Shown here: one piece after another, positions 7,297 to 55,643 of the stretch
Numbering within the stretch: the stretch's first letter is position 1
Layout: every line of letters starts with the position of its first letter
Origin: Amycolatopsis sp. NBC_01480
GTDB lineage: Bacteria > Actinomycetota > Actinomycetes > Mycobacteriales > Pseudonocardiaceae
Reading direction: 5' to 3'
NCBI RefSeq assembly: GCF_036227205.1
Contig: NZ_CP109442.1
Location: 3,038,001 to 3,102,000 of the forward strand
Length of the DNA: 64,000 bases
Position numbers and translations under genes: made by a program
Notes under the pieces: model-generated
What the model was told of the DNA's origin: nothing
The model's database searches: none
What the model saw: only the letters and a program-made list of their open reading frames with translations

Positions 7297-9579
7297 ATGG
7301 GCGCTGTACAGCTGACGCTCGGGGGGATCTCCGTTCTCCTCGGCATCGTCGCCTGGGGAATGTTCATCGCGACCGTGGCCCGGTTCGTGCGCGTGATCCG
7401 CCTCGGCCAGCCCGACCCGACCCGCAACGGGCCGTTCACGCCGCGGCTGATGACCATGGTCAAGGAGTTCGCCGCCCACACCCGGATGGCCAAGTTCCGG
7501 CAGGTCGCCCCGTGGCACTGGATGGTGATGTGGGGCTTCCTGATCGGGTCCCTCGCGCTGTTCGAGGCCTACGGCGAGGTGTTCGTCCCGACCTGGGGCT
7601 GGCCGGTGCTCGAGGACTGGTCGCTGTGGAGCCTGCTGATGGAGCTGCTCGGCGTCGGCACCGTCGTCGGCGGCGTCGCGCTCGCGATCATCCGGCAGCT
7701 GAACCACCCCCGCCGCGCCGACCGGCAGTCGCGCTTCGCGGGCTCGAACTTCAAGTGGGCCTACTTCGTCGAGGCCGTGGTGATCGTCGAGGGCATCGGC
7801 ATCATCGGCGTGCGCGCGGGCAAGGCGGCACTGCACGTCCACGAGGTGCCGACCTGGTCCGCGTTCGTGTCGAACCCGCTGAGCGAGCTGCTGCCCTCGA
7901 GCGCGGCGCTGGTCTCGGTGTTCGCCTTCATCAAGCTGATGAGCGCCACCGTGTGGCTGATCGTGGTCGCCCGGACGATGACCATGGGCGTCGCGTGGCA
8001 CCGGTTCAGCGCGTTTTTCAACATCTACTTCAAGCGCGAGGCCGACGGCGGGGTCGCGCTCGGCGCGGTCAAGCCGATGATGTCCGGCGGCAAGGTGCTC
8101 GACCTCGAGGAGGCCGACCCGGACGAGGACACCTTCGGCGTCGGCCGGGTCGAGGACTTCAGCTGGAAGGGCTGGCTCGACTTCTCGACGTGCACCGAGT
8201 GCGGCCGTTGCCAGTCGCAGTGCCCCGCGTGGAACACCGGCAAGCCGCTTTCGCCGAAGCTGCTGATCACCCAGCTGCGCGACCACGCGTACGCCAAGGC
8301 GCCGTACCTGCTCGCGGGCGGCAAGCGTGACATGGCCGGCGACGAAATCGGCCTCACCGGCGACAACCCGCACGCCGGCATCGACGTGCTCGCGCTCGCC
8401 GAGTCCGAGCGGCCGCTGATCGGCGGCGCCGAGGAAAACGGCATCATCGACCCGGACATGCTCTGGTCCTGCACCAGCTGCGGCGCCTGCGTGGAGCAGT
8501 GCCCGGTGGACATCGAGCACGTCGACCACATCGTCGACATGCGCCGGTACCAGGTGATGATCGAGTCGTCGTTCCCCACGGAGCTGAACGGCATGTTCAA
8601 GAACCTGGAGAACAAGGGCAATCCGTGGGGCCAGAACGCCAAGGACCGTCTACAGTGGACGGAAGACCTCGACTTCGAGGTGCCGGTGTTCGAGGGCGAC
8701 CTCGGCGACGCGGAGTACCTCTTCTGGGTCGGCTGCGCCGGCGCGTTCGAGGACCGCGCGAAGAAGACCACCCGCGCGGTGGCCGAGCTGCTGCACATCG
8801 CGGGCGTGAAGTACACCGTGCTCGGCTCGGAGGAGTCGTGCACCGGTGACCCGGCGCGCCGCGCGGGCAACGAGTTCCTGTTCCAGATGCTCGCCCAGCA
8901 GAACGTCGAGGTGCTGAACTCGGTGTTCGAGGGCCGCGAACGCAAGGCGCGCAAGGTGGTCGTCACCTGTGCGCACTGCTTCAACACCCTCGCCAACGAA
9001 TACCCGGAGCTGGGCGGCCAGTTCGACGTCGTGCACCACACGCAGCTGCTGAACCGCCTGGTGCGCGAGAAGTACCTGACGCCGGTGGCGCCCGTCGCCG
9101 AGGACGTCACCTACCACGACCCGTGTTACCTGGGCCGGCACAACAAGGTCTACGACGCGCCGCGTGAGCTCGTCGGGGCTTCGGGGGCCAAGCTGCGCGA
9201 AATGCCGCGGCACGGCGACCGGTCCATGTGCTGCGGCGCCGGCGGCGCGCGGATGTGGATGGAGGAGAAGATCGGCAAGCGGATCAACGTCGAGCGCGTG
9301 GACGAGGCGCTCGGCACCGCCCCGTCGAAGATCGCGACCGGCTGCCCGTTCTGCCGCGTGATGCTCACCGACGGCGTCACCGCGCGCCAGAGCGACGGCC
9401 TGGCGAGCGAACGGGTCGAGGTCGTCGACGTCGCGCAGCTGCTGCTCACCTCCGTGAAACGGAAGCCGGAGCCGGCGCTGGTGGCGGCGGGCGCGCCTTC
9501 ACTGGAAGACGAGGCGGACGCGGACCTGACGGCTGAGCCCGCCGAGGAGACGGCGGACCCCTTGCCGGACAAGGAGTAA
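7297..9579 (+). CDS. Membrane Fe-S reductase, heterodisulfide-reductase-like (EtfD / Rv0338c type)
   Basis: 760 residues. The N-terminal third (1-270) has several membrane helices in a respiratory cytochrome-b-like (NarI/HdrE) arrangement. Two 4Fe-4S ferredoxin motifs follow: CTECGRCQSQCP at about residue 299 and CTSCGACVEQCP at about 392. The C-terminal half has two CCG domains (GCAGAFED...CTGDPARR...TCAHCFNT; YHDPCYLGR...CCGAGGARM...GCPFC). This architecture matches mycobacterial EtfD, which passes electrons from ETF, reduced by acyl-CoA dehydrogenases, to the quinone pool; the mycobacterial protein is somewhat longer. The C-terminal 40 residues are acidic and disordered. A shared operator with the fadE5-like gene supports a role in fatty-acid oxidation. 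Confidence 0.9.
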   Translation: MGAVQLTLGGISVLLGIVAWGMFIATVARFVRVIRLGQPDPTRNGPFTPRLMTMVKEFAAHTRMAKFRQVAPWHWMVMWGFLIGSLALFEAYGEVFVPTWGWPVLEDWSLWSLLMELLGVGTVVGGVALAIIRQLNHPRRADRQSRFAGSNFKWAYFVEAVVIVEGIGIIGVRAGKAALHVHEVPTWSAFVSNPLSELLPSSAALVSVFAFIKLMSATVWLIVVARTMTMGVAWHRFSAFFNIYFKREADGGVALGAVKPMMSGGKVLDLEEADPDEDTFGVGRVEDFSWKGWLDFSTCTECGRCQSQCPAWNTGKPLSPKLLITQLRDHAYAKAPYLLAGGKRDMAGDEIGLTGDNPHAGIDVLALAESERPLIGGAEENGIIDPDMLWSCTSCGACVEQCPVDIEHVDHIVDMRRYQVMIESSFPTELNGMFKNLENKGNPWGQNAKDRLQWTEDLDFEVPVFEGDLGDAEYLFWVGCAGAFEDRAKKTTRAVAELLHIAGVKYTVLGSEESCTGDPARRAGNEFLFQMLAQQNVEVLNSVFEGRERKARKVVVTCAHCFNTLANEYPELGGQFDVVHHTQLLNRLVREKYLTPVAPVAEDVTYHDPCYLGRHNKVYDAPRELVGASGAKLREMPRHGDRSMCCGAGGARMWMEEKIGKRINVERVDEALGTAPSKIATGCPFCRVMLTDGVTARQSDGLASERVEVVDVAQLLLTSVKRKPEPALVAAGAPSLEDEADADLTAEPAEETADPLPDKE

Positions 9580-54131: not shown

Positions 54132-54164
54132 CTCAGGCGACGCGCTGAACCGCTTCGCCCGAAA

Positions 54165-54204
54165 CGCCCCAATGTGGCGTTGGTTGCGTCCAACGCACCC
54201 AATG
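54165..54204. repeat. Left part of intergenic palindromic repeat, interrupted by the IS
   Basis: Outer arm CGCCCCAATGTGGCGTT (54165-54181) and one full 30-bp unit (54168-54197, starting CCCAATGTGGCGTT and ending TGCGTCCAACGCA), followed by CCCAATG (54198-54204), the start of a second unit. The second unit resumes at 55601, after the IS. Confidence 0.8.
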
Positions 54205-54220
54205 ATGCTCCTATGGTTGG

Positions 54221-55357
54221 TCAAGGGGTGAGGTGTTGGAGGGCGGCGAGGTCTGCTGTGAGGTGTGGGTAGATGTTGCGGGCGATGTAGCGTTTGAGTT
54301 TGCGGATGATGTGTTTTCCGTTGCTGCGGTTGGGTGTTCGGTGTGTGGTGACGTAGTCGCGGGTGGGTTGGTGGGTGGCCATGCGGGTGATGGTGATGCG
54401 GTAGAGGGCGGCGTTGGCGTGGCGGTCGCCGCCGCGGTTGAGTCGGTGCCGGTCGGTGAGGCCTGAGCTGGCTTGGTGGGGTGCGGTGCCGGTGAGCATG
54501 GCGAAGGCGGGTTCGCTGCGGAGGCGGTCGGGGTTGTTGCCGGCGGTGATGAGCAGTTGGCCGGTGGTGTCGGGGCCGAGGCCGTGCTGGGCGAGGGTGC
54601 GGGGCGCGATGAGGGTGATCAGGGCGGTGAGCTGGGTGTTGAGCCGGGTGACGGCCTGGTCGTAGTGGCTGATCATGGTGGCGAGATCGTGCAGCGCGAT
54701 GCGGGTGGCGGTGCCGGCGTCGAGCAGGGCGTGGGCGAGGCCGGTGCCGGTGTTGTCGGTGCCGGGCAGGGCCAGGCAGGCTGCCAGCAGCCGTGCCGGG
54801 GTGAGTCCGGTGAGCTGTTCGCGCAGATCGTCGGGTGCGGTGACGAGCAGGGCGCGCAGGGTGTTCCAGGCGGCGGTGCGGGCTTTGATCCAGGTGTCGC
54901 GGGTGCCGCGCAGCACCCGCACCGACTCGATCGGGCCGGTGCGGAGTTTAGGGGCGGCGGTGGCGTCGCCGGACTGCGTCGCCGCGGCGGCGCTGATCGC
55001 GTCCAGCGGGTCTGTCTTGCCTTGCCGGCGTCGTTTCTGCCGGTTCGGCCGGTTGACCTCCACCACCCGGACGTGCTCACCGGTCAGGTAGCGGGTCAGC
55101 CCGGCCCCGTAGGAGCCGGTGCCCTCCACCCCGACCGCGGTGACCGTGCCGAAGCCACGCAACCAGGCCAGCAGTGCCTGGTAGCCGGCACCGGTCGCGG
55201 CGAACCGGCGGGTGCCCAGCACCTGCCCGAGCGCGTTCTTCACCGCGGCCCAGTGGAAGTCACGATGGGTGTCCACCCCCGCCGTGATCACCTGCCCGGT
55301 GGCCGCGGCATCGGCGGTGACAGGGGCGGGCTGGGTTTTACCGGGGAGTTTTGCCAT
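54221..55357 (-). CDS. IS110 family transposase/recombinase
   Basis: 378 residues from the ATG at 55355-55357 (AGAAGGAA about 14 bases upstream; an in-frame GTG at 55405 would add 16 residues). The N-terminal RuvC-like DEDD domain is complete: Asp in GVDTHRDFHW, Glu in GVEGTGSYG, and the DPLDA pair. The C-terminal Tnp domain has the conserved Ser region (APHQASSGLTDRHRLNRGGDRHANAALYR). No frameshift or stop, so it is probably active. RNA-guided recombination by bridge RNA is established for IS621 in this family. Confidence 0.93.
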   Translation of the reverse strand: MAKLPGKTQPAPVTADAAATGQVITAGVDTHRDFHWAAVKNALGQVLGTRRFAATGAGYQALLAWLRGFGTVTAVGVEGTGSYGAGLTRYLTGEHVRVVEVNRPNRQKRRRQGKTDPLDAISAAAATQSGDATAAPKLRTGPIESVRVLRGTRDTWIKARTAAWNTLRALLVTAPDDLREQLTGLTPARLLAACLALPGTDNTGTGLAHALLDAGTATRIALHDLATMISHYDQAVTRLNTQLTALITLIAPRTLAQHGLGPDTTGQLLITAGNNPDRLRSEPAFAMLTGTAPHQASSGLTDRHRLNRGGDRHANAALYRITITRMATHQPTRDYVTTHRTPNRSNGKHIIRKLKRYIARNIYPHLTADLAALQHLTP

Positions 55358-55439
55358 GCTGGTCGTGTCGTTCCTTCTCGGATGGTTCTGGGCGGGCAAC
55401 GGCACCCCACCGAACCGCGGTGAGCGGACAACACTGTGA

Positions 55440-55598
55440 TCAGCGGCCTGCGGCTACAGGCTCCTATCAGGTCACACACCCCGCACCCGGTGAGGCAAGC
55501 GGGACCACCGGGCCGGCCGACAGATCATTGGACAGACACCAACGGTCAGTGGCATACAGAGTCACACCGGCCCGGTGACCCCACCCCCACATCCTCAC
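55440..55598 (-). ncRNA. Bridge RNA candidate of the IS110 element
   Basis: In the non-coding end upstream of the transposase, read on the minus strand, an 11-bp stem (55567-55577 with 55506-55516; CACCGGGCCGG/CCGGCCCGGTG) encloses a loop. Within it, 55547-55556 reads TATGCCACTG, containing GCCAC of the adjoining flank, and 55524-55531 reads CCAATGAT, complementary to the CATTGG flank on the other side. A small ACC/GGT stem separates them. Further on, CCTCAC (55490-55495) is complementary to GTGAGG at the element's right end and ATAGGAGC (55460-55467) is identical to the other end (54207-54214). Exact 5' and 3' ends are estimates. Confidence 0.75.
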
Positions 55599-55600
55599 AG

Positions 55601-55643
55601 TGGCGTTCGGTGCGTCCAACGCACCGAACGCCACATTGGGGCG
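55601..55643. repeat. Right part of the interrupted palindromic repeat
   Basis: Rest of the second 30-bp unit (55601-55623) and the outer arm AACGCCACATTGGGGCG (55627-55643), the perfect complement of the left outer arm at 54165-54181. The element ends 26 bases before the stop of the convergent peptidase gene. Confidence 0.8.

Follow-up and report, generated by a model that had tools for sequence, protein, structure and literature searches.

The window, a 64,000-nucleotide stretch of a 10.1-Mb genome (G000:C1:3038001-3102000), contains an IS110-family element of 1396 bp on the minus strand, at 54204-55599. Its ends were set by comparing the four copies in this genome, which are 99-100% identical in DNA and protein. 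The first-pass annotation had placed the element at 54203-55643; in the four-copy comparison, 55600-55643 is host flank, chiefly palindrome, and lies outside it. In the sense of the transposase, the left junction reads ...GCCAC/TGTGAGG and the right junction reads ATAGGAGCATC/ATTGGG, where ATAGGAGCATC is the right end of the element. The element and its surroundings comprise:

54204-55599, minus strand: IS110-family element (comparison of the four own copies)
54221-55405, minus strand: DEDD recombinase (transposase), 394 aa from the first GTG, start codon provisional (Pfam, PDB)
55412-55599, minus strand: predicted bridge RNA region in the left end, both of its ends estimated from structure (fold, covariance model)
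54220-54224, minus strand: -35-like TTGAC near the right end (TTGAC in 33 of 34 clusters of relatives; putative promoter element)
55591-55596, minus strand: -10-like GAGGAT in the left end (GA(T/G)GAT in 22 of 34 clusters; putative)
55600-55608, minus strand: left target GAACGCCAC, positions 1-9 (flank, copy comparison)
54199-54203, minus strand: right target ATTGG, positions 10-14 (flank, copy comparison)
54164-54203, no strand assigned: host palindromic repeat, low-coordinate side, approximate (sequence)
55600-55641, no strand assigned: host palindromic repeat, high-coordinate side, approximate (sequence)

The recombinase matches PF01548 (E 4.7e-22) and PF02371 (E 1.5e-12), both above the gathering score, and thus combines the DEDD RuvC-like domain with the PF02371 domain, as in the IS110 group. 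Its sole sequence relative in the PDB at E 0.001 is the IS621 recombinase (8wt6, E 1.9e-4). According to extracts of one study, the catalytic serine of the IS110 group sits in a G--P----SG motif (PMC11187229), and by eye the translation contains a candidate for this motif, GTAPHQASSG. The gene is intact, as had been noted, with no internal stop in any of the four copies. The same extracts describe IS1111-group elements as having subterminal inverted repeats and usually carrying their long non-coding region downstream of the gene (PMC11187229), whereas here it lies upstream: 194 bp precede the first GTG and only 17 bp of element follow the stop codon. These features support assignment of the insertion sequence to the IS110 group (IS110/IS621 type). 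Its left end carries a bridge-RNA-like structure.

Relatives and the predicted bridge RNA

Relatives were collected from the genus (80 genomes, 15 of which gave a match at E 1e-60) and from the family, genus included (390 genomes, 37 of them at E 1e-75), plus further copies. These gave 80 loci, from which 67 usable copies were grouped into 34 left-end clusters. Six loci were dropped because they had no recognizable left donor guide (L048, L059, L076, L091, L098, L100) and seven because an end or flank could not be defined (L021, L022, L023, L061, L097, L099, L101); a scan of named genomes for close relatives gave three distant loci, all dropped for undefinable ends. Left ends were set by a motif rule, with hand choices for L054, L033, L044, L032, L092 and L093, and L102 was retained although its right flank looks misread. 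The left ends of L054 and L055 carry a GTGAGG-type start duplicated ~20 bp apart, giving two possible left ends. Since certain copies interrupt one and the same host sequence (L086-L088; L030, L066 and L089; L092 and L093), the 67 copies are not 67 independent insertions, and the tests took one per cluster.

The first-pass annotation had proposed that the left end encodes a bridge RNA in which four segments match the flanks and the ends of the element. The structure and the target guides of that proposal are supported, while one of the four segments was misassigned and the element ends and the core were misread. The 11-bp stem it described (55567-55577 with 55506-55516) is present, as are GCCAC and CCAATG in the enclosed loop with a small ACC/GGT stem between them. 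The predicted target-binding loop contains:

55567-55577, minus strand: stem, 5' arm (sequence, fold, own-arm test)
55549-55557, minus strand: left target guide GTATGCCAC, which matches the window flank GAACGCCAC at 7 of 9 positions by Watson-Crick pairing plus 1 G.U (covariation)
55538-55547, minus strand: small stem-loop GACCGTTGGT between the target guides (sequence; GAC/GTC pairs in the consensus fold)
55526-55531, minus strand: right target guide CCAATG, whose last G pairs with the core C (covariation)
55524-55525, minus strand: target-loop handshake guide AT, which could pair with donor T8 and A7 (fits 34/34 and 32/34 clusters)
55506-55516, minus strand: stem, 3' arm (sequence, fold, own-arm test)

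When the guides were kept unpaired, the 190 nt downstream from 55599 folded into two stem-closed loops. The RNA extent first suggested, 55440-55598, is too short, since the right donor guide and its stem need a run to ~55412. Across the clusters, the arms of the target-loop stem pair with their own partner at a mean of -45.5 kcal/mol versus -28.6 with the arms of others, and those of the donor-loop stem at -19.0 versus -16.4 (0/20,000 for each); the own arm ranks first in 22/34 clusters for the target loop and 6/34 for the donor loop. A covariance model of the target loop trained without this element, on the 33 remaining clusters, hits 55491-55585 on the minus strand at 60.3 bits (E 8.5e-10), a score that rests largely on sequence because the model holds 12 pairs. 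The next match of this model in the window, 8088-8176 on the minus strand (15.7 bits, E 0.53), is probably due to chance. A consensus fold of all left ends keeps 14 pairs, for 10 of which at least one sequence differs at both paired bases, and loses the outer stem since arm lengths vary. The lack of a conserved stem-loop in homologous ends, named beforehand as evidence against a bridge RNA, was not found: these ends share the loop architecture and have covarying guides. Rfam 15 has no family at gathering score within the element and finds only a tRNA elsewhere in the window, and a permissive Rfam search of the element returned just two sub-threshold microRNA models.

Guides, handshake bases and core

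All four copies in this genome are inserted in AYGCCAC^ATTGG (element target sequence, GAACGCCACATTGG). Without an insertion, this 12-mer is found 197 times across the genome (94 on one strand and 103 on the other; reversed control, 1). The target that the guides had been said to spell, GCCA-C-ATTGG, is the real insertion site. The two guides of the target loop match opposite strands of this target. Copies with the same guides in unrelated sites, which the first reading had listed as a possible refutation, did not occur among the four own copies, which all lie in one target.

Comparison of left ends and flanks among relatives, as the first reading had proposed, revealed that the target guides covary with the targets across the 34 clusters. 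When each left end was searched for a match to its own flank, left-target matches summed to 255 and right-target matches to 204, whereas 100,000 permutations reached no more than 201 and 193, respectively. At target positions 1-8, the left guide matches its own target in 29, 27, 29, 29, 34, 29, 34 and 33 of 34 clusters, where 7.9-21.0 are expected from the guides of other clusters (0/20000 permutations each). The base just outside this guide is at background (4/34, 6.4 expected), and position 9, the core C, matches in 27/34 clusters versus 26.2 expected, giving no covariation signal. The right guide matches positions 10-14 in 29, 31, 22, 23 and 25 of 34 clusters (8.0-9.6 expected; 0-1/20000), and the five bases beyond it are at background. 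These permutations ignore phylogeny; grouping into 20 guide types that differ at at least 3 of 9 bases, which only lessens the effect of kinship, left both guides at 0/50000 permutations.

The quality of the match varies. The left guide pairs at 9 of 9 positions in 14 clusters, 8 in 10, 7 in 5 and 6 in 5, and over all 67 copies, taking the first guide of each cluster, at 9 positions in 36 copies, 8 in 12, 7 in 11 and 6 in 8. For the right guide, the match is 5 of 5 in 15 clusters, 4 in 7, 3 in 6, 2 in 4, 1 in 1 and 0 in 1; the 6/34 clusters at 0-2 are L102 (0), L068 (1) and L030, L032, L063 and L064 (2). The left target guide of the window element is among the weaker ones, with 6-7 of 9 Watson-Crick pairs over its own copies. 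Each of the four is mismatched at target position 2, and two are also mismatched at position 1. One sister copy, L080, is inserted in sequence unlike the targets of its sisters.

The predicted donor-binding loop contains:

55471-55489, minus strand: stem, 5' arm, approximate (constrained fold, own-versus-other duplex test)
55460-55467, minus strand: left donor guide ATAGGAGC (identical to the right-end ATAGGAGC; donor position 4 covaries, 32/34)
55434-55439, minus strand: right donor guide TCACAG, complement of the donor CTGTGA (position 10 covaries, 34/34)
55432-55433, minus strand: donor-loop handshake guide TG, which pairs with target A8 and C7 (covaries with target positions 8 and 7)
55412-55431, minus strand: stem, 3' arm, approximate (constrained fold, own-versus-other duplex test)

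As first described, ATAGGAGC in the non-coding end is identical to the other end of the element; the right donor guide follows on its 3' side. The guides of this loop match the element's own ends, with covariation limited to the few donor positions that vary, as most are nearly invariant and hence uninformative in this test. The left donor guide matches its own donor at position 4 (A/G) in 32/34 clusters versus 21.0 expected (0/20000) and at position 7 in 0/34. The right donor guide, anchored by a motif picked after looking, matches at position 10 in 34/34 versus 17.0 expected (0/20,000) and at position 12 in 33/34 versus 29.2 expected (39/20,000); positions 9, 11, 13 and 14 gave no informative covariation in the 34 clusters. 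An unanchored search gave 0/50000 (own sum 197, best permutation 191), with a search interval that began too late for L030 and L068. CCTCAC, originally named as one of the two segments that match the element's own ends, is indeed complementary to the terminal GTGAGG; we rejected it as the right donor guide because six bases complementary to the own left end occur upstream of the left donor guide in only 2/34 clusters (L024 and L063; 0.9% in mismatched pairs). The right donor guide is instead the TCAC(A/T)G-like sequence that lies beyond the left donor guide in the 3' direction, TCACAG in this element, which tracks the donor.

Judged by their covariation, the two bases after the right donor guide behave as the handshake pairing of IS621 predicts: they match target position 8 in 31/34 clusters (34 with G.U) versus 22.4 expected, and target position 7 in 33/34 versus 18.0 expected (0/20,000 for both). 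The corresponding target-loop handshake (GAT with donor ATC) agrees but proves nothing, as there is hardly any variation at these bases.

Position 9 is C in the donors of 67/67 copies and the targets of 66/67. Position 8 is T in 34/34 donors and A in 26/34 targets (52/67 copies), so that donor and target agree in 4/34 clusters. Any base can stand at position 10 of the target (C in 10 clusters, A in 8, T in 8 and G in 8 of 34), and the right target guide follows it in 29/34. In these alignments, the shared core is one C; the right target guide reads the base that comes next in the target, and the right donor guide the one that comes next in the donor. Of the CT dinucleotide shared in IS621, only the C is shared here, and we take CT as a feature of IS621 and not as defining the family. 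The first-pass annotation had called a one-base core mismatch (CT by one guide, CA by the other), which assumed the IS621 core; since the C is shared, and position 8 is T in donors and mostly A in targets, that mismatch is a feature of the clade. We rejected its reading as a defect because the base after the C varies freely in targets. The strands could be cut on either side of the core C.

We therefore estimate a probability of about 0.95 that this is an IS110-group insertion sequence that moves as a circle, steered by a DEDD/serine recombinase and a left-end bridge RNA. The ends of the element, the identity of the target, the covariation of guides with DNA and the conserved structure are given by the data, and from them we infer transcription, circle formation, cut positions and catalysis. 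On circle closure, TTGAC and GA(T/G)GAT could form a promoter. The recombinase and the bridge RNA would direct the movement of the circular element, with the donor loop reading the joined circle ends (ATAGGAGC on the left side and TCACAG on the right side), exchange occurring at the single common C, and the two handshake bases beside the right donor guide pairing with the incoming target strand. Such an element would have many landing sites, mostly outside genes, since its target guides fit an intergenic palindrome with well over a hundred copies in the host.

Host repeats, alternative readings and related systems

The target 12-mer belongs to a longer hairpin-like repeat that reaches well past the guide match. 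CCCCAATGTGGCG occurs 132 times in the genome (control, 0). Its sites recur at opposite-copy spacings of 36, 66, 89 and 119 bp among the 100 of 132 sites listed, like composite REP arrays. With genes called by a simple GC3 rule, the 15 distinct repeat loci examined (from 17 rows, in which two places appear twice; best BLAST matches, not a random draw) comprised 9 between convergent genes, 3 between plus-strand genes, 2 between minus-strand genes and 1 unclear, a placement compatible with a terminator-like role. CGCCACATTGGGG is present in 42 of the 80 genus genomes, this one among them. As several genomes rich in CGCCACATTGGGG contain no relative of the recombinase at E 1e-60 (G025, 186 copies; G069, 211; G075, 284), the palindromic repeat is, on this distribution, a feature of the host.

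The same genomes bear on whether the element itself spread the palindromes, so that the guide match would be the result of insertion and not its cause. Guide and repeat do share sequence, as this explanation would have it; given abundant repeats in genomes that lack a recombinase match, and a repeat that extends well past the guide match, we find it scarcely plausible. It is also very unlikely that the recombinase protein recognizes the palindrome and that the guide matches are coincidence or relics of recombination between end and flank. Palindromes can be protein-bound and the left guide of this element is imperfect, but the guides of 34 clusters, in 20 types, track their own targets at each position, agreement ending sharply at the guide edges, and the handshake bases, although no part of the target guides, track the target too. 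A region that folds strongly directly upstream of the gene might instead be a structured 5' leader or an antisense regulator of the transposase that guides nothing, and extracts of one report describe small-RNA regulation of the ISPpu9 transposase (PMC8450116). A leader has no need to covary with flanking host DNA, however, which makes this explanation extremely improbable, and a regulatory role could coexist with guiding. Steering by a left-end bridge RNA thus remains our preferred reading.

How do the guides relate to the repeats of different hosts? Three related elements, in G000, G020 and G058, have guides that each match the repeat of their own host. CGCCACATTGGGG is found 132, 0 and 0 times in these genomes, CGAAAGCCACTTTCG 0, 184 and 1 times, and TGAAAGCCACATTCA 0, 0 and 264 times; CGAAAGCCACTTTCG and TGAAAGCCACATTCA occur in 27 and 5 of the 80 genus genomes. 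The elements of G020 and G058 have their left guide in common, and the base that distinguishes their targets also distinguishes their right guides. The sample is small, with three repeats and three elements, and was picked because the repeats had already been seen in flanks. Counter to a general rule, G010 and G048 carry 60 and 119 copies of CGCCACATTGGGG, yet their elements lie in integrase genes. Since testing the targets for palindromes through exact arms gave a weak result (L025 was the only representative with arms of at least 8, and few were above the null), we claim palindromic targeting only for the counted repeats.

At least 10/34 clusters include a copy that interrupts another transposase gene, as judged by Pfam searches of the separate flank pieces; the 20 pieces searched were mostly picked for transposase-motif-like junctions. 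The interrupted genes match rve or rve_3 (L027, L042, L029, L078, L079, L034, L036), DDE_3 (L033), DDE_Tnp_4 (L069, L090), DDE_Tnp_1 (L086) and Transposase_mut (L092, L058). Flank pieces of L072, L102, L031, L062 and L054 contain no Pfam family, and that of L044 only helix-turn-helix-type families. Target base 9 is the third codon base in the pieces with a Pfam match, and in L034 it is G, not C. The motifs at the insertion points of these rival transposases are NGKV^ER, CDN^YG(P/T)H, YSG^KH, RYD^K and SYFPD^WLL. Insertions in L027, L029, L033, L034, L036, L058, L069, L078, L086 and L092 fall in conserved-looking motifs. We presume that the interrupted transposases belong to families such as IS481, IS630 and IS256, and likewise presume which of their residues are catalytic. 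Other sisters lie just after CTGAC, possibly at stop codons (TGA): L032, L035, L037, L060, L061, L064, L075, L077, L081 and L082. In elements at these sites the left guide ends in CTGAC, and the right guide matches 2 of 5 bases in L032 and L064, 3 in L060 and 4 in L035.

Taken as sequence comparisons, these sites suggest an evolutionary rule in which the guide follows whatever repeats the host offers, such as host-specific palindromes. We give roughly even odds to the broader proposal that the bridge RNAs of this actinobacterial clade evolve mainly by re-aiming at multi-copy sequences (host-private palindromes and the motif codons of rival transposases), with the core shrunk to one C and its neighbor base set independently for donor and target, helped by the handshake guides.

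The closest known system is IS621. Extracts of published work on IS621 and its relatives describe a bridge RNA in the left end, handshake guides and a promoter across the circle junction (PMC11208158, PMC11208160), top-strand cleavage after a CT core that is also found in related orthologues (PMC11208158), insertion in REP palindromes (PMC11187229) and bridge RNAs predicted for 85.7% of IS110 elements (PMC11208160). As far as these extracts go, the present element resembles IS621 in its DEDD/serine recombinase, its target loop followed by a donor loop, the guide order (left target, right target, left donor, right donor), the 9-nt left target guide, the handshake guides and a junction promoter, putative here. 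Donor position 7 is also special in both, tolerating mismatches in IS621 and matched in 0/34 clusters here. In contrast, the near-invariant core base at position 9 is T in IS621 and C here, one core base is shared here and the natural right target guides read 5 bases past the C, and the similarity between the two recombinases is remote (E 1.9e-4). Insertion of IS110 elements in REP sequences has long been known, according to extracts of two reports (PMC1525189, PMC8450116). ISPpu9, ISPpu10 and other REP-inserted IS110 elements likewise use multi-copy intergenic palindromes as landing sites in the portions of the sources seen (PMC1525189, PMC8450116, PMC11187229), but in other hosts and in other palindromes, a likeness by description. 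The seekRNAs of the IS1111 group are, in the extracts available, also guide RNAs from the non-coding region with segments that match both target strands (PMC11187229).

Among the matches listed in a search of open-licence titles and abstract starts, actinobacterial bridge RNAs, these palindromes and insertion in transposase genes were unreported, a silence that, given this scope, is weak evidence of novelty. The relatives provide a natural, sequence-only test of most bridge-RNA pairings, the donor-loop handshake included, and a clade whose donors and targets share one core base, and whose natural target spans 14 bases, could be useful for choosing recombinases to reprogram.

Finally, we note a second, different IS-like sequence of ~1.06 kb, with ends TTTTCATC...GATGAAAA and copies 99.5% identical, in the same host palindromes. 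It is found at L020 1546-2607 and at L024 from ~2707 (G000:C1 near 6.30 Mb and 3.47 Mb), and once it directly adjoins an IS110 copy.
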